Source: Kiloniella sp. EL199 (GTDB taxonomy: Bacteria; Pseudomonadota; Alphaproteobacteria; Kiloniellales; Kiloniellaceae). Taken from it: 64,000 nucleotides of DNA. Location: positions 372,001 through 436,000 of the forward strand of contig NZ_OMPU01000010.1 in NCBI RefSeq assembly GCF_900313065.1. The letters run 5' to 3'. A program made the position numbers and the translations under genes. How positions within the stretch are numbered: the first letter of the stretch is position 1; every line of letters starts with the position of its first letter. This document shows, piece after piece, positions 28,570-57,614 of the stretch. Under the pieces are notes generated by a model, which was not told where the DNA came from, did no database searches, and saw only the letters and a program-made list of their open reading frames with translations.

Positions 28570-29106
28570 TTAAATGTTCCTGTTCCAGGGAAATGTGTCC
28601 TCTGGAATAAAGCTCACGTCATCCTCTTCACGCTGATCATCTTTGGAATTATCATGTTTACGCCGTCGACAGGGACCGACATAGCTTTCAATACGGACAA
28701 AGGGGCGTGGATGTTTAATGATACGCTCAATGGCTTTGTACAACATCATTGGTGACAGGGGTTTGAGAATGAATTCGTTCATACCCTTGTCACGTGCTGT
28801 TGTGACATCTGTTTTTTCTGCAAGCGCGGTTAGAACAATAATTTGAATATAGGGTGTCGGGCTACTGTCTTCTGTGCGAAGCTGACGGATAAGGTCATTG
28901 CCATTCACTGGCGCCATATCCAGGTCAATAATGGCAATGTCCGCTGGCATGGTCCGCAGTGCCTGAATGGCTTCTTCCGCCGAAGAGGCGACCCGTGGAT
29001 TGCTGACCTCAAAGGCGCGCAGGATTGTTTTCACAATACGCTGCATCACAGGATTGTCGTCAACAATCAGAAATTCAATGTTCTTAAGATCACAGGCAGC
29101 GGTCAA
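28570..29106 (-). CDS. Single-domain response regulator with acidic/basic tail
   Basis: 178 aa CheY-like receiver: acidic pair in IVDDNPVMQRIVKTIL (about 14-29), phospho-acceptor Asp in AIIDLDMAPVNG near 60, Thr in IIVLTALAE near 93 and Lys in FILKPLSP near 115. The last 50 residues are a charged tail (RRRKHDNSKDDQREEDD) with no DNA-binding domain. The start is TTG, since an in-frame stop lies four codons upstream and no better codon exists. No histidine kinase is encoded nearby. It lies next to a luxI remnant. Confidence 0.85.
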   Translation of the reverse strand: MTAACDLKNIEFLIVDDNPVMQRIVKTILRAFEVSNPRVASSAEEAIQALRTMPADIAIIDLDMAPVNGNDLIRQLRTEDSSPTPYIQIIVLTALAEKTDVTTARDKGMNEFILKPLSPMMLYKAIERIIKHPRPFVRIESYVGPCRRRKHDNSKDDQREEDDVSFIPEDTFPWNRNI

Positions 29107-29338
29107 TTTTACATCACTCTAGAACAAACTGTTTGAAACTCTAAAAAGAATATACTTCAAAGAATATGACCAGAAGGACTATTCATAGAGTGTCATATAA
29201 TCAAAGAGATAGATATGACGCCATCCTGGTTTATTTTTCGTTAAATCTTTAGTTTGTTGTTTTTCTGGTGTCTTTTATAACCAGTTCTTTTCTGTTTTTG
29301 AGCTTGAACATTCGCTTGCTATGAATAATCACACATTT

Positions 29339-29380
29339 ATATACTTCGTATAATTGAGTATATACTTCGTGTAATTGAGA
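29339..29380. promoter_or_regulatory. Two 21-bp direct repeats upstream of luxI remnant
   Basis: ATATACTTCGTATAATTGAG at 29339-29358 recurs at 29360-29379 with one mismatch (position 12 of the unit). The period of 21 bp is two helical turns, so both copies face the same side, as expected for an activator or repressor site. The luxI start is 67 bp downstream. Confidence 0.6.
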
Positions 29381-29415
29381 AAAGTATCCTAAACTCAGGC
29401 ATGAATTGCATTACA

Positions 29416-29446
29416 GTTTCTCTCCCTCAAATCAATGGAGAGAAAC
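29416..29446 (+). promoter_or_regulatory. Hairpin over the luxI ribosome-binding site
   Basis: GTTTCTCTCC and GGAGAGAAAC are perfect 10-bp complements around an 11-nt loop, and the right arm ends at the base before the ATG. The Shine-Dalgarno GGAGAG is inside the stem, which would mask it in the mRNA. Confidence 0.6.
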
Positions 29447-29608
29447 ATGTTTGTGCAAATAGATCCCAATCACTACGAGTATTTTCAACCACAGATCAGA
29501 TCCATGTTTGAATTGCGCTATCGCGTTTTTTGCGAACGTCTGGGCTGGGTTCCTGGTGAAAATCTGATGGAACGGGATTTGCCTGTGTCCGTTTATTTCG
29601 ATGATTGA
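29447..29608 (+). pseudogene. Truncated acyl-homoserine-lactone synthase (luxI family)
   Basis: A 53-codon reading frame starting at ATG with GGAGAG. It has the LuxI N-terminal signature FELRYRVFCERLGW...GENLMERD, with the conserved Arg, Phe, Trp, Glu and Arg-Asp in proper spacing. Homologues run to about 200 aa. Here the similarity stops after MERD and a TGA follows. The IS3-family element begins 25 bp later, and no 3' part of luxI is found on its far side. The synthase must be inactive. A luxR gene follows the IS. Confidence 0.8.
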
Positions 29609-29706
29609 GTTTAGATAAGCAAGGGATTGTAGTGCCCCCATTTTAGCAAGCCCGTTTTAAGATAGTTTTGGTGTGCAGTTTTTGGTTAAACTCACTCTCA
29701 AATTTT

Positions 29707-30435
29707 TCAGGCAGCATGTAGCCGAGCGTTGAGTGCAAATAGCTGCTGTTTATAGTGCTCAATCCATTTGTTTAAAGCTTCAAAAAATACGGTTGGGCTT
29801 GTCCATTCATTGATCCAGACAAGCTCTTCTTTCAGGGTCCGCATAAAACGTTCGGTATCAGCATTGCCCTTTGGATTGTTGTAAGAGGTAAAGGCCTGCT
29901 TTATGCCCATTGCGTTGCAGGCTTTCATAAAAGAAGTTGCTGTTGGCTGGCAGCCATTATCTGACATCAGTTTCAGATCGTGTTCTCTGACGCCACCAGG
30001 AAACTGTCGGTTAACACCGATATTAAGAGCCACCAGCCAGTGCCAGGCTTTGGATTGCAGGCCAGCATGATGACCAACAATCTTCTTGGTATGCCAGTCG
30101 ATAACAATCGTAACATAAACCCAACCATAACCTTCGATCATAACCTTGGTCATATCAATGCCCCACCACTGGTTTGGACGATCTGGTTTTGGCTTTTTGG
30201 TATTTGCCCGGCGAATAGCCTTAAGCTTCATGTTTTTTGTCACCAAAAGATTGTGCTCCTTCATCAAGCGGTGCACACGGTTCTTGCTGAGATTGATATT
30301 ATCCACATACCTCAAGTGTGCCCATGTCCTGCGATAACCCCAGAAAGGATGGTCTGATTTAATCTCCCCTATACGTCTGACAAGAGGCGCATTTTTAACA
30401 GCGACTGCTGCATAAGAACCCCGCTTCATAACCAC
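29707..30435 (-). CDS. IS3-family transposase OrfB (DDE integrase domain)
   Basis: 242 aa with the retroviral-type integrase core: first Asp in WWGIDMTKVMIEGYGWVYV, second in LMSDNGCQPT, Glu in NADTERFMRTLKEELVW. The upstream HTH_21-like segment HPFWGYRRTWAHLRY is present. It looks intact. It is probably made as an OrfAB fusion by -1 slippage at the A-run (30443-30450), since the frames overlap by 10 bp and OrfB has only a GTG start without a good ribosome-binding site. Confidence 0.92.
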   Translation of the reverse strand: MVMKRGSYAAVAVKNAPLVRRIGEIKSDHPFWGYRRTWAHLRYVDNINLSKNRVHRLMKEHNLLVTKNMKLKAIRRANTKKPKPDRPNQWWGIDMTKVMIEGYGWVYVTIVIDWHTKKIVGHHAGLQSKAWHWLVALNIGVNRQFPGGVREHDLKLMSDNGCQPTATSFMKACNAMGIKQAFTSYNNPKGNADTERFMRTLKEELVWINEWTSPTVFFEALNKWIEHYKQQLFALNARLHAA

Positions 30436-30698
30436 GGCTCGCTTTTTTTTAATTCAAGCGTTAGTTCTCCAACCAGTCCTTTGAGTTTCTGGTTCTCAAT
30501 TTCAAGCCGAGCCTGCTTCTTGCCAACCTTCTCACTATCAAATGCCCTCGAAGCATTCGACAAAAACTGGTCTCGCCACTGATAATATTGTGCCTGACTG
30601 ATGCCATGCTCAGTACAAATATCGCTGACGGATTGTCCCTGCAAGCCTGACAATACAATCAGGCTCTTCATCTCACTCGTCCATTTACGTCTTTTCAT
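30426..30698 (-). CDS. IS3-family transposase OrfA
   Basis: 90 aa from ATG 30698 (GGGAG ten bases upstream; the longer TTG start at 30719 is less likely). Helix-turn-helix RRKWTSEMKSLIVLSGLQGQSVSDICTEHGISQAQYYQWRDQF is followed by a leucine-zipper-like coiled coil (ARLEIENQKLKGLVGELTLEL). The zipper continues into the slippery run for the OrfAB fusion. Confidence 0.9.
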   Translation of the reverse strand: MKRRKWTSEMKSLIVLSGLQGQSVSDICTEHGISQAQYYQWRDQFLSNASRAFDSEKVGKKQARLEIENQKLKGLVGELTLELKKSEPWL

Positions 30699-30825
30699 AC
30701 ATCGGTCTCCCGGTATCAAACTGCAAAAAGACTATCTTACTTTAAGCTAATTTTAAATCGGGGGCAGGATACTGTTTGCTGTAAGGGTTGCTAGCTAATC
30801 CCCTAAATCGGATATATTTTATTGG

Positions 30826-30863
30826 ACGTTTCACCCTGAATTGCTAGGGTGAAACGTTCTTTT
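30826..30863 (+). terminator. Strong hairpin upstream of luxR
   Basis: Perfect 12-bp arms ACGTTTCACCCT and AGGGTGAAACGT with an 8-nt loop are followed by TCTTTTCG. It is probably the former terminator of luxI, left behind after the 3' part of that gene was lost. It ends about 20 bp before the luxR start. Confidence 0.65.
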
Positions 30864-30881
30864 CGTTGATTGGATAGGGCC

Positions 30882-31595
30882 ATGAAATACTCTGAGTTAG
30901 TGTTGTCATTGAAAGAAATAAAACAATGCGAAACAACTGATGATTTGCAGAGTGTTCTTACTAAAGTTATTCACAGATTAGATTTTCAGCAGTTTGTTTA
31001 TGTCCTCTTTACCAAGAATTGTGTGGCGATTGAGGTATCGATCTATACCTATAGTGAAGAATGGAAAGCTATTTATTTTGAAAAAAGATACGATCAAATA
31101 GATCCCGTTTTTGTCGAAGCATTCAATAGAAATGCTACTTTTTTCTGGTCAGCTTGCATGCCAGAGTTTACGGGGAAGTATCAGGATTTTTTTGATGAAG
31201 CGACAAAATATGGTGTTTTTAACGGAATAACAGTTCCTCTCAAATCGGTTGCAAAAGCAAAGGCGATTTTGACAATGGCTGCAGCAAAAACAGATGAAAA
31301 TAAAAATGTCAGGGAAGCATCGCCAGAAAAAATCGCTTGTGCGACAGCTATTGCTGAATGTTTTCACCAAGTAGCGATACATGTTTCCAAAGAGGGAAAT
31401 CTGACATTAAAGCTTCGGCAAAAACAAGCTTTGACGCTTGCCTCCTATGGAATGTCATCAAAGGAGATTGCTGCAACGTTGGATAAATCTGAAGCCTATA
31501 TCAATGAATTGATTACAGGTGTTTTGCATAAGTTAGGTACTCAATCACGGACAGCTGCTGTTCGAAGAGCACTAGAACTTGGTTTGCTCGATTGA
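30882..31595 (+). CDS. LuxR-family quorum-sensing regulator (orphan)
   Basis: 237 aa from ATG 30882. The autoinducer-binding domain has the conserved set W61, Y65, D74-P75, W89 and G115 (YSEEWKAIYFEKRYDQIDPVF, FFW, GITVPL). The C-terminal LuxR helix-turn-helix is LKLRQKQALTLASYGMSSKEIAATLDKSEAYINELITGVLHKLGTQSRTAAVRRALELGLL; the usual LTxRExE opening is altered to LRQKQAL. Ligand pocket residues are intact, so it can still answer to AHLs from other cells. Its likely partner luxI is destroyed. Confidence 0.92.
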   Translation: MKYSELVLSLKEIKQCETTDDLQSVLTKVIHRLDFQQFVYVLFTKNCVAIEVSIYTYSEEWKAIYFEKRYDQIDPVFVEAFNRNATFFWSACMPEFTGKYQDFFDEATKYGVFNGITVPLKSVAKAKAILTMAAAKTDENKNVREASPEKIACATAIAECFHQVAIHVSKEGNLTLKLRQKQALTLASYGMSSKEIAATLDKSEAYINELITGVLHKLGTQSRTAAVRRALELGLLD

Positions 31596-32117
31596 TAATT
31601 AGTTCACCCTTAATTCCTAGGGTTTATCTGATTTTCACTTTCTATAGTATGTACACTTATTGGTTGTTAGTTATAAGTATGAACTTCGCAGGGGTGTATT
31701 GGTAACATGGCAACTTTAGTATTTAGAGAAACCCCGATACGACTTAAGTGAAAGTGCGTACAAATGGTCACAAAGCTAAAGTGTAGTCGAGCATTGTTAC
31801 AGGCTCTTGATGCTGTAACCGCTATGGAGCAAGCGGGGCAGCAAGCCAAGCGCAGTAGTTCACACAAAAATTCTGGTAATGTTATTGGCTCGCATAACAA
31901 TAAAGAATTGAGACATAACGAATTTTTTGATCTACCAGTGATTAATTCGAAAAAGTTACAATAGACTTATTTAGCTATTATTTTCCTCACTTCTTATTAT
32001 GTTCCTCAGTATCTGGATCGTCGTTTAAGTAAAAAACTATGGATCGTTAATCATTGTTGAAATTGACAAATGACAAAGATTGCCATTAAATAATGTTTCT
32101 TTTAGAGGAGTTTTGGT
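31596..32117. other. 522-bp region without a supported gene
   Basis: Frames on both strands (31764-31964 plus, 31667-31900 minus) overlap each other, lack ribosome-binding sites and show no motif. The region is AT-rich and may hold the parD promoter. Nothing else was recognised. Confidence 0.5.
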
Positions 32118-32351
32118 ATGGCGACGATGAATGTGTCCCTTCCGGATCAGATGAAGAGCTGGGTTGAGGATAATGTGCAATCCGGGCGCTATGCTAATGC
32201 GTCTGATTATGTGCGAGATCTTATTCGGCAAGATCATTTGCGATTGGAAAAGCTTCGTGAAGCCTTAATCGAAGGTGAGAAATCGGGGGCTTCTTCCGCC
32301 TTGGATTTAGAAGCATTTCTGGTCGATAAAAATAAATCACTGACACTATGA
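32118..32351 (+). CDS. parD: ParD-type antitoxin
   Basis: 77 aa ribbon-helix-helix antitoxin: MNVSLPDQMKSWVEDNVQSGRYANASDYVRDLIRQDHLRLEKLREALIEGEKSGAS is a standard ParD/CopG pattern. A GAGGAG site precedes the ATG. The C-terminal tail would bind ParE. The stop overlaps the toxin ATG as ATGA (32348-32351). It is intact, unlike the toxin frame. Confidence 0.92.
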   Translation: MATMNVSLPDQMKSWVEDNVQSGRYANASDYVRDLIRQDHLRLEKLREALIEGEKSGASSALDLEAFLVDKNKSLTL

Positions 32352-32654
32352 AGGGGGCATTCGCCCTTACAGATTGTATTCACACCGCTTGCAAAAAGAG
32401 ACCTCAGTGATATTTGGAATTACACCAACAATCAATGGGGAGCCAAGCAGGCTGATAACTATGTCAGAGAACTTTATGCTGCGATAGAAAGGCACAGAGA
32501 AGAGCCTTTCTTGGCTAAGGATATTTCTGATGTCCGTAGTGGCTATCGGAAATTTTTATCTGGATCTCACGTAACTTTCTTTCAACAAGATAAGAGGGTT
32601 ATCAACGTTATCCGGATACTGCATAAGTCGATGGATTTTGACCGACATTTGTAA
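32348..32654 (+). pseudogene. parE: ParE-type toxin with a +1 frameshift after the start
   Basis: From 32352 the frame reads LQIVFTPLAKRDLSDIWNYTNNQWGAKQADNYV and continues through DISDVRSGYRKFLSGSHVTFFQ to VIRILHKSMDFDRHL, a full ParE/RelE-superfamily toxin. The natural ATG at 32348 is in another frame and stops after 20 codons. Removing one base from the run GGGGG (32353-32357) joins ATG to the toxin frame, giving about 101 aa. So the toxin is silenced, switched by slippage, or there is a sequencing error. No other start in the toxin frame exists near the N-terminus. Confidence 0.8.
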
Positions 32655-32936
32655 ATTGAGCGCTATCCGAACGATTAACTGCGGATGATCCTCTGTATAT
32701 CCATTATTCAAAAAATACCGCAACACTCTATGAAGAATGCTGCGGTAGAGTTGGTTCCTTATTTGACAGAACCGGGTTAATCCACAGTGTACGGTCTAAT
32801 GGCTTGGGAGAGCTTGAGGGGCGTACAGTGGTTTTATACGGGCTTGTGTGTGCCCGCTTGGCAGGTGGTGTCGAGCGGGGAAGGCCCGCAGCCGATGACT
32901 GGCTGGTACAATCGGCTGGAGCTTATTCCCGGACCT

Positions 32937-55433: not shown

Positions 55434-56321
55434 CTATTTTATAGGGGCTCTTTTTGCTAAACCTTCTTTCAAGTGCTCAATGAGTAGACGTACTTTGGAA
55501 GAGAGCTGACGGTTATGTGGATAAATTGCCCAGATGCCTTCGTCTGAAGAGCGAAAATGATCCAATATAGGGACTAATTTACCTGTTTCTATGTACAATT
55601 GGACATAATAATCAGGCAATTGGATAAGGCCGATGCCTTTGAGTGCAGCATCCACAAGTGACCAACCGCTATTGCATTGCAAGTTTCCCTTTACGCGAAT
55701 TTGTCGTGTTTTTCCATTCTCTTCAAAACGCCATGTGTCCAGAGTTCCTCTCAAGCAATTATGTTGATCTAACTCTGTCAGATTTCGTGGTTTGGAGTTT
55801 TCTTTTAAGTATTCTGGTGATGCACAAATGTAATTTGTTCTTGATGAAAGCCGCTTTGCAATCATTGTACTGTCTTCAAGTTGACCTAGGCGGATTGCCA
55901 GATCGTAACTTTCGGCAACAAGATCTAGCTTGTGATTTGTAAGTGCTAAACTAATTCTCAGATCAGGATACTGTTTTGAGAAATCATTTATGAGAGGGGC
56001 GATAACATTTTCTCCATAGGTCACTGGGGCAGTCAGGTTCAATCTTCCTTGTGGTGATTGATTTAGATCGGTTACGACCCGTTCTGCTTCTTCCAAGCTA
56101 TCAAGTATCTGCCTACAGTGATTATAATAAATTTGGCCCGTTTCTGTTATGCTTACCTTTCTGGTTGTACGATAAAATAATTTAACGTTTAGTCGGCCTT
56201 CCAATACGTTAATTTGGCGACTTACTTGGGCTGTTGATATTCCCAAATGCCTAGATGCATCTGTAAAGCTCTTGCGTTCTGCGACGGCTACAAACTCTGT
56301 AACGCCTTCCCAATTATGCAA
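55434..56321 (-). CDS. LysR-family regulator divergent from adhC
   Basis: 295 aa; HTH NWEGVTEFVAVAERKSFTDASRHLGISTAQVSRQINVLEGRLNVKLFYRTTRKVSITETG, with the effector domain after residue 88. Divergent from the glutathione-dependent formaldehyde dehydrogenase gene across 165 bp that contains an 18-bp palindrome. LysR regulators encoded beside frmA/adhC commonly control it; target assignment is inference. Confidence 0.92.
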   Translation of the reverse strand: MHNWEGVTEFVAVAERKSFTDASRHLGISTAQVSRQINVLEGRLNVKLFYRTTRKVSITETGQIYYNHCRQILDSLEEAERVVTDLNQSPQGRLNLTAPVTYGENVIAPLINDFSKQYPDLRISLALTNHKLDLVAESYDLAIRLGQLEDSTMIAKRLSSRTNYICASPEYLKENSKPRNLTELDQHNCLRGTLDTWRFEENGKTRQIRVKGNLQCNSGWSLVDAALKGIGLIQLPDYYVQLYIETGKLVPILDHFRSSDEGIWAIYPHNRQLSSKVRLLIEHLKEGLAKRAPIK

Positions 56322-56361
56322 TTTTTTCTCCTTTGCCAGATCATTATTGGTATATTCTAAC

Positions 56362-56379
56362 TATTACTATATGGTAATA
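56362..56379. promoter_or_regulatory. 18-bp palindrome between lysR and adhC
   Basis: TATTAC and GTAATA flank a TATATG centre, 40 bp before the LysR start and about 108 bp before adhC. It has the T-N11-A shape expected of LysR boxes. Confidence 0.5.
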
Positions 56380-56471
56380 ATGTTTTGCAAATAACGGTAA
56401 TTGTATCGTATGTGAAATAGTTTAAGTCATAGCTAACAACGGACGACTAAATGTCGGAAGTTTTATTATGA

Positions 56472-57614
<1,143 letters not shown>

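Follow-up and report, generated by a model that had tools for sequence, protein, structure and literature searches.

Between positions 29447 and 31964 of the window (the whole 64,000-nucleotide stretch of DNA analysed here), the marine bacterium Kiloniella sp. EL199 carries four pieces of a luxI gene, an IS3-like insertion sequence (IS) lying among them, a complete luxR, and a short region 3' of luxR with promoter-like elements and a small ORF. We consider it very probable that this is a degraded AHL quorum-sensing pair in which luxI was lost stepwise and the complete luxR is now a LuxR solo. The features of the locus are as follows.

29447..29578, plus strand: luxI remnant A, codons 1-44, in frame, with 86% amino acid identity to K. 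spongiae LuxI 1-44
29579..29594, plus strand: luxI remnant B, equivalent to luxI nt ~191-206 and not in the frame of remnant A
29592..29627, plus strand: luxI remnant C, equivalent to luxI nt ~376-412 but lacking one base, and containing a TGA
29628..30771, minus strand: IS3-like insertion sequence, 1144 bp, with ends TGTAGTGCCCCC / TATCCTGCCCCC and without a target duplication
29707..30435, minus strand: orfB transposase (rve, HTH_21), 242 aa, its 3' end shifted relative to the second copy of the element
30426..30719, minus strand: orfA (HTH_Tnp_1), 97 aa, an IS3-type ORF
30780..30798, plus strand: luxI remnant D, final 6-7 codons and stop, a DNA match
30824..30859, plus strand: luxI-luxR intergenic hairpin, terminator-like, with its core ACCCT-N8-AGGGT at 30833-30850
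30882..31595, plus strand: luxR, 237 aa (Autoind_bind and GerE), from ATG
31606..31623, plus strand: second ACCCT-N8-AGGGT palindrome, candidate LuxR site, ~42 bp before the inferred start
31645..31650, plus strand: TAGTAT, a -10-like hexamer, spacing counted by eye
31764..31964, plus strand: small ORF of 66 aa that may be a LuxR target; K. spongiae and K. majae have a related ORF in the same position

The lux cassette within the genus

The locus was compared across nine Kiloniella genomes, one genome per species, including EL199 itself, whose assembly (G000) comprises 4,177,471 bases in 19 contigs with a completeness given as 99.88%. The five nearest LuxR loci, all from the same genus and labelled from identity and coordinates, are those of K. 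spongiae (G003, 88%), K. laminariae G21630 (G002, 71%), a Rhodospirillales MAG (G008, 62%), K. laminariae DSM 19542 (G001, 62%), and K. majae (G007, 61%). In these five of the nine genomes luxI and luxR are paired at the same place, and EL199 has luxR with a luxI remnant. Directly upstream of luxR, the luxI of the five relatives can be matched without an internal stop across 210 or more of 221 residues, and the Pfam model Autoind_synth scores above its cut-off in the same five genomes, at 146.7-157.3 bits for the copy adjoining luxR. The reference luxI of K. spongiae has 221 codons and a stop 82 nt before the luxR ATG. The first-pass annotation had read the locus as a broken quorum-sensing pair, and the uninterrupted luxI-hairpin-luxR order, looked for in related genomes, is present there; this would be the ancestral cassette, kept in the five other genomes of the genus.

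Neither luxI nor luxR is found in the remaining three genomes (G004, G005, and G006), although G005 is only 77% complete and its absence is uninformative. G004 and G006 keep the flanking genes on both sides with the cassette missing, and the simplest history involves at least 2 reductions at the lux locus within the genus. A tree of the dehydrogenase gene groups the window with K. spongiae and K. majae (support 81) and places G004 and G006 together (89) beside that group, with lux-bearing genomes outside. Inside the window's group, this tree joins K. spongiae with K. majae at a support of only 49, while a tree of three flanking genes in 5 genomes pairs the window with K. spongiae (93). The luxR and luxI trees conflict on K. 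majae, so recombination may have affected the locus.

Pieces of luxI and the order of the lesions

The frame that opens at the ATG at 29447 has 53 codons and closes, as the first-pass annotation had it, with a TGA (29606-29608), which lies in remnant C. Its description there as a LuxI N-terminus stands for the start and for 44 codons in frame, but the last 9 residues are two out-of-frame pieces of luxI, remnants B and C. Remnant B matches the luxI of K. majae at 15/16 positions (0/2000 shuffles), G008 at 14/16 (0/2000), K. spongiae at 13/16 (14/2000), K. laminariae G21630 at 12/16 (69/2000), and K. laminariae DSM 19542 at 12/16 (29/2000), and its final three bases, TTT, are common to the start of remnant C. 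These values come from an ungapped shuffle test, a global alignment having split remnant B in two. Applied to remnant C, the ungapped test reached at best 19/37 (394/2000 shuffles for K. spongiae, other relatives similar or worse) and matched nothing because of the 1-nt gap and a searched range that ended inside the target; with gaps, remnant C matches K. spongiae luxI at 33/38 positions (E 2e-8), column 38 being the first base of the IS.

Nothing of the missing LuxI had been recognized beyond the IS at first pass, which is nearly right, except that the final 6-7 codons are found there as remnant D, reading AVRVAS* against IVKIAS* in K. spongiae (read by eye), followed by the luxI-luxR spacer. 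The portions of luxI absent from the window are approximately nt 133-190, 207-375, and 413-647. Since the damage left of the IS amounts to at least 2 internal deletions and a 1-nt deletion, the first proposal, a break caused by the IS alone, is not supported. Another possibility, named beforehand, was that the 53-codon frame is a conserved separate gene; it is ruled out by the five relatives, all of which carry a long luxI.

Loss of luxI and orphaning of luxR, the core of the original proposal, are borne out by the relatives that hold the pair and by the searches of EL199 for a further luxI. The K. spongiae LuxI query at E<=10 returned the remnant alone, and in the Pfam scan of the LuxI family over the 9 genomes, in which the relatives serve as a working control, EL199 reaches only 14.4 bits. 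The Pfam LuxI family at E<=0.001 likewise gave nothing in EL199, but the control genomes were silent too, which makes that threshold uninformative alone. On the remnant, Autoind_synth scores 17.9 bits (E 0.0024) over profile positions 2-38 of 183, short of the cut-off of 24.

The ends of the IS were set by a second copy in EL199 (G000:C12) and by G008, where partial matches, several of them at contig edges, break off at these ends too. The element begins at 29628, 19 nt past the TGA, rather than the 25 bp after the stop that had been estimated. Its assignment at first pass as an IS3-like element downstream of the remnant agrees with two Pfam domains that are over their cut-offs (HTH_Tnp_1 in orfA, 54.8 against 24.1; rve in orfB, 50.2 against 32.6), and with NCBIfam, whose best model is transpos_IS3. 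Against the cut-off of 160 for that model, orfB reaches 146.5 and orfA 39.4 bits, but the model spans the fused protein and the two ORFs were scored apart, with orfB shifted near its end, the shift being due to one base that the window copy has in excess of the second. In having orfA and orfB, an rve domain, and a short target duplication (at the second copy), the element is like the IS3 family. Its TG/TA ends presumably resemble those of IS2. The IS2 TnpB model scores 49.7 on the window IS against a cut-off of 597, far short. Matches to the IS occur in 3 of the 9 genomes (EL199, K. laminariae DSM 19542, and G008), with none at E<=0.001 in K. spongiae or K. majae.

From the second copy 179 internal bases are missing, and it is bordered by GATG at each end, a 4-bp target duplication, whereas the window copy has GGAT on its left and CTGT on its right. 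This comparison confirms the missing target duplication reported at first pass and lends support to the flanking deletion suggested with it. The simplest reading is that a deletion of ~230 bp abuts the IS on the right, because luxI nt ~413-647 are absent directly to its right and there is no target duplication here. We envisage that luxI would have been lost by at least 2 internal deletions, a 1-nt deletion, an IS3-like insertion, and this deletion abutting the IS, and that the loss was probably recent.

As to the order of these lesions, the sequences lean weakly towards luxI having been dead before the IS arrived. At positions of the 44 codons of remnant A that do not vary among the other five, the window carries private changes, 3 of them replacement and 0 silent; summed over the same codons, the private changes of those five are 3 replacement and 7 silent (Fisher p 0.07). 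By a rough clock, the IS copies diverged at about 0.6-1% of the lineage length, and constraint on luxI was lost at about 8-13% of it (upper bounds 20-33%), given chosen inputs of a branch dS of 0.3-0.5 (half of the pairwise 0.75-1.02), 103 replacement sites, and 4 derived replacements in the 44 codons, where H12Y and K18R were polarised by eye and the counts are small. Between the window IS and the second copy there are 6 differences in 964 aligned bases, and this near identity of the two copies hints at a young insertion, although gene conversion between them would also produce apparent youth. If the IS insertion was instead the first and decisive lesion, then the other deletions would be the later decay of a dead gene, a history to which we give somewhat less than even chances. 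It would suit the right-hand deletion, which adjoins the IS and removed one side of the expected target duplication, and dead genes are expected to collect internal deletions, but the 6/964 divergence of the IS copies sits at a much smaller share of the lineage than the loss of luxI constraint and argues weakly against it. That the whole arrangement is an artefact of sequencing, or of assembly around a repeat, is highly improbable. IS elements are common misassembly points, but this one is internal to contig C19 of the 19-contig, nearly complete assembly, the other copy differs from it in its missing bases, and the luxI pieces flank it in the correct order and orientation.

The remaining LuxR and its candidate sites

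The luxR product passes the cut-offs of both of its domains (Autoind_bind, 75.4 bits against 23; GerE, 30 against 23.5) and is the one PF03472 protein of the EL199 genome. Six orthologues, those of the window and the five relatives, align gap-free apart from the final residue in K. majae. W61, Y65, D74, P75, W89, and G115, which we take to be the invariant ligand-domain set of the LuxR family, are present in all six, in keeping with the first-pass annotation, which had listed them as retained. Q stands at the position of TraR E178 in all six Kiloniella LuxR proteins, the register being taken from an alignment with RhlR. Presumably the Glu at this position, at the start of the DNA-binding domain, is commonly conserved and not defining; the Q is a group trait and not damage, because the intact pairs carry it too and GerE is still over its cut-off.

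Pairwise omega of LuxR against K. spongiae is 0.059 (0.036 in the last 76 codons), and four flanking genes in the same species pair give 0.021-0.126. Counts of derived residues in the window and K. spongiae proteins are 11 vs 9 with K. laminariae G21630 as outgroup, and 10 vs 7 and 9 vs 9 in the other comparisons; we see no clear acceleration of the window LuxR over that of K. spongiae. These measures were used in place of a branch codon model, discarded because its outgroups were saturated and its polarisation poor; it assigned an omega of 12 to the window branch, which is tiny, and 0.14 to that of K. spongiae. The constraint measured on LuxR for the most part predates the loss of luxI.

At sites invariant elsewhere, the window LuxR has 7 private changes, and the other five have 4, 3, 5, 4, and 6. 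Those in the ligand domain of the window protein, numbered from Met, are F26L, G34D, A39V, R42L, and I112V. Position 34 is Gly also in TraR and RhlR in the alignment, and residue 39 aligns with TraR Ala38 (in an alignment made with the K. spongiae LuxR), which a table in the available portion of the review PMC9654057 lists as a TraR ligand residue. A further change, D123V, falls at a site where D is found in three relatives and N or S in the remaining two. The private changes in the ligand domain hint at drift or at a retuned, changed specificity.

The sequence ACCCT-N8-AGGGT occurs twice in the 64-kb window, flanking luxR, against an expectation of 0.03 (0/100 shuffles have 2). The palindrome in the luxI-luxR spacer is present in 6/6 genomes with an invariant ACCCT/AGGGT core and sits in a hairpin of 13 pairs, for which all 78/78 cells are paired in the 6 sequences and slid versions reach 37-51%. 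Two-sided changes occur in 6/13 pairs (reached by 9/500 shuffles), and the covariation score is reached by 0/500 shuffles, the number of further pair types by 84/500. A terminator scan of the region found 3, compared with 2.2 in shuffles, and Rfam over 29000-32400 gave 3 matches with E 0.15-1, all under the gathering score. The spacer palindrome reads as a hairpin that may double as a protein site; since it behaves as an RNA hairpin, its conservation may be unrelated to LuxR. Pairing of the post-luxR transcript with the luxI leader was considered and set aside, being short, seen by eye only, and not conserved between species.

The second palindrome fits the pattern in 4/6 genomes, with K. majae and G008 deviating in the left arm, and its extended arms are absent. 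Downstream of it lies a conserved ACACTTATT-GTTG block with the -10-like hexamer at a near-fixed distance, the hexamer standing 21-22 nt past the palindrome in 6 genomes with uneven quality; TAGTAT is not among the calls of the promoter scan, which needs a -35 element. We assume that palindrome, hexamer, and block together represent the layout of a LuxR-activated promoter. Besides the related ORFs of K. spongiae and K. majae, both K. laminariae genomes have ORFs with a similar SRALL motif after luxR, and none of this type was found in G008 within the stretch read. From the sequence, both palindromes are candidate LuxR sites.

A wider LuxR regulon defined by the palindrome was rejected. In a search of 8 of the 9 genomes (G005 left out), in which sites fitting both strands count twice, the palindrome was above its control in 3/8 genomes and below it in 5/8. 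Forward plus reverse sites against control were 3+0 / 2+0 in G000, 3+1 / 1+1 in G001, 3+2 / 0+0 in G002, 2+2 / 3+4 in G003, 0+0 / 1+3 in G004, 0+2 / 2+1 in G006, 1+1 / 4+4 in G007, and 2+1 / 4+4 in G008.

If LuxR still folds and binds ligand, it would act only on an AHL-like ligand coming from other cells. Provided that the palindromes are indeed its sites, it probably still binds ACCCT-N8-AGGGT on both sides of its own gene, and its target may be the promoter that follows luxR. That it has been kept as an eavesdropper on the AHLs or related signals of neighbours, perhaps with altered specificity, has in our view somewhat less than even odds. In favour of this stand the complete LuxR, the six pocket residues, and the candidate operator and -10-like element still in place, and a review of SdiA treats a LuxR solo listening to foreign bacteria (PMC12086679, in its available portion). 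Against this, selection on LuxR alone may not yet show if the loss is so young, and the constraint noted above is mostly older than the loss. The contrary reading, in which LuxR is itself decaying, a passive leftover whose ligand binding is gone, strikes us as possible but rather doubtful. It could draw on the private ligand-domain changes, G34D and A39V at the TraR Ala38 position among them, and on G004 and G006, from whose lack of the cassette it follows that the genus can live without it, but it must contend with a full-length frame, the low omega in the last 76 codons, and no clear excess of derived residues. A more specific form of eavesdropping, which we think unlikely, is that the acyl pocket of the orphan LuxR is being retuned to foreign AHLs through A39V, G34D, and R42L, with sites and promoter unchanged. 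If this were true, then the same LuxR output would now be driven by neighbours.

Comparison with known LuxR solos

Among the titles and abstract openings of the literature on the genus, we found none reporting AHL genes in Kiloniella, although print may still hold some, and PMC6356914, in the part available, reports Kiloniella isolates and not lux genes. LuxR solos are common, and the transition from pair to solo is as a rule deduced from which genomes have the genes and which lack them. In this genus a single locus occurs as an intact pair, as a half-erased one, and not at all, so that existing species allow tests of the sequence of losses, of what becomes of LuxR once its signal has gone, and of a candidate operator.

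The K. spongiae LuxI and the window LuxR find their best NCBIfam models in TraI and TraR (NF052393, 173.6 bits; NF010444, 72.5 bits), but they are not equivalents of these proteins, falling far under the curated cut-offs of 250 each. Degraded systems have been described in Rhizobium, where the available text of PMC13133039 reports pseudogenes of luxI, contexts in which luxR persists without luxI, and, where the context is incomplete, seven LuxI-type frames of 42-162 aa. The present case differs in its genus, in the linkage of its locus to a dehydrogenase gene, and in the IS inside luxI.

The survey in PMC4338825, as far as its available portion goes, defines a LuxR solo as a protein with autoinducer-binding and HTH domains for which the cognate AHL synthase gene is missing from the genome. 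The window LuxR has both domains, in a genome where the search for LuxI-type synthases gave only the remnant. According to the same portion of the survey, LuxR solo genes can have transposases and pseudogenes in their neighbourhood, and one proposed origin of such solos is that the LuxI homologue was lost. The window locus is like the solos so explained in its two-domain LuxR, its LuxI-less genome, and its related species with luxI/luxR in an equivalent context. Orphaned receptors being already well documented, it is a well-preserved case of a known kind; what distinguishes it from the solos in the accessible part of PMC4338825 is that the intermediate is readable, with four luxI pieces in order, an IS inside them, and an adjoining deletion.

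Candidate regulatory sequences around luxI and luxR

The complete luxR is flanked by twin palindromes of the form ACCCT-N8-AGGGT, which we regard as candidate LuxR operators:

window 30833-30850, palindrome 1, on one side of luxR, in 6 of 6 genomes having this luxR
window 31606-31623, palindrome 2, on the other side, in 4 of these 6

In the leader of luxI (window 29417-29445, and at the equivalent position in L001-L005, the five nearest loci by LuxR) lie TTTCTCTCC and GGAGAGAAA, which, judged by eye and from sequence only, are complementary or nearly so in 6 genomes and, again by eye, enclose the ribosome-binding site of luxI. Translation of luxI may be controlled through this complementarity. 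Further upstream of the luxI remnant, a direct repeat, TATACTTCGTATAATTGAG / TATACTTCGTGTAATTGAG, was noted by eye at window 29340-29379, and none was seen by eye in the leader of K. spongiae.

Reading frames downstream of luxR

The N-terminus of the 66-aa small ORF (window 31764-31964, + strand) weakly resembles five frames at other places in the genus, each 73-97 aa long (E 0.03-0.09):

G003:C7:7379-7477, K. spongiae, weak
G007:C3:81212-81307, K. majae, weak
G004:C20:7323-7409, Kiloniella-genus genome, weak
G005:C117:2379-2450, Kiloniella-genus genome, weak
G008:C5:27401-27481, Rhodospirillales MAG, weak

Such similarity suggests that the small ORF and these frames could belong to one small-protein family.

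Beyond it lie two further frames:

window 32118-32654, ParD-like antitoxin, then an open ParE-like frame

The ParD-like antitoxin scored 51.2 bits, and a ParD relative lies near the equivalent place in G004; the frame that follows, assigned to ParE by eye, is open and has no obvious ATG, GTG or TTG start. Around the place equivalent to window 31965-32936, K. spongiae, G004 and G006 carry an ORF of about 540 aa. The window gave no hit to it at E<=1e-4, and in G008 a relative lies upstream of the luxI of that genome.

The second IS copy and lux pairs across the genus

The genome of the window holds another copy of the element, bounded by a GATG target duplication:

G000:C12:6111-7074, IS copy 2, 179 internal bases missing

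By eye, these bases were apparently deleted between short direct repeats, CTTTGGATTG.

An additional luxI-luxR pair is present in 2 of the 9 genus genomes (K. laminariae G21630, G002:C44 ~106900-108200; G008:C14 ~55800-57050), and this extra pair was not found in the window's genome. In G004:C12 (L070) and G006:C383 (L071), the flanking genes are retained and the luxI-luxR cassette is absent between them. At K. majae L005 5247-6710, luxR clusters in trees with that of G008 (support 82) and luxI does not, a pattern that may reflect recombination inside the K. majae pair.
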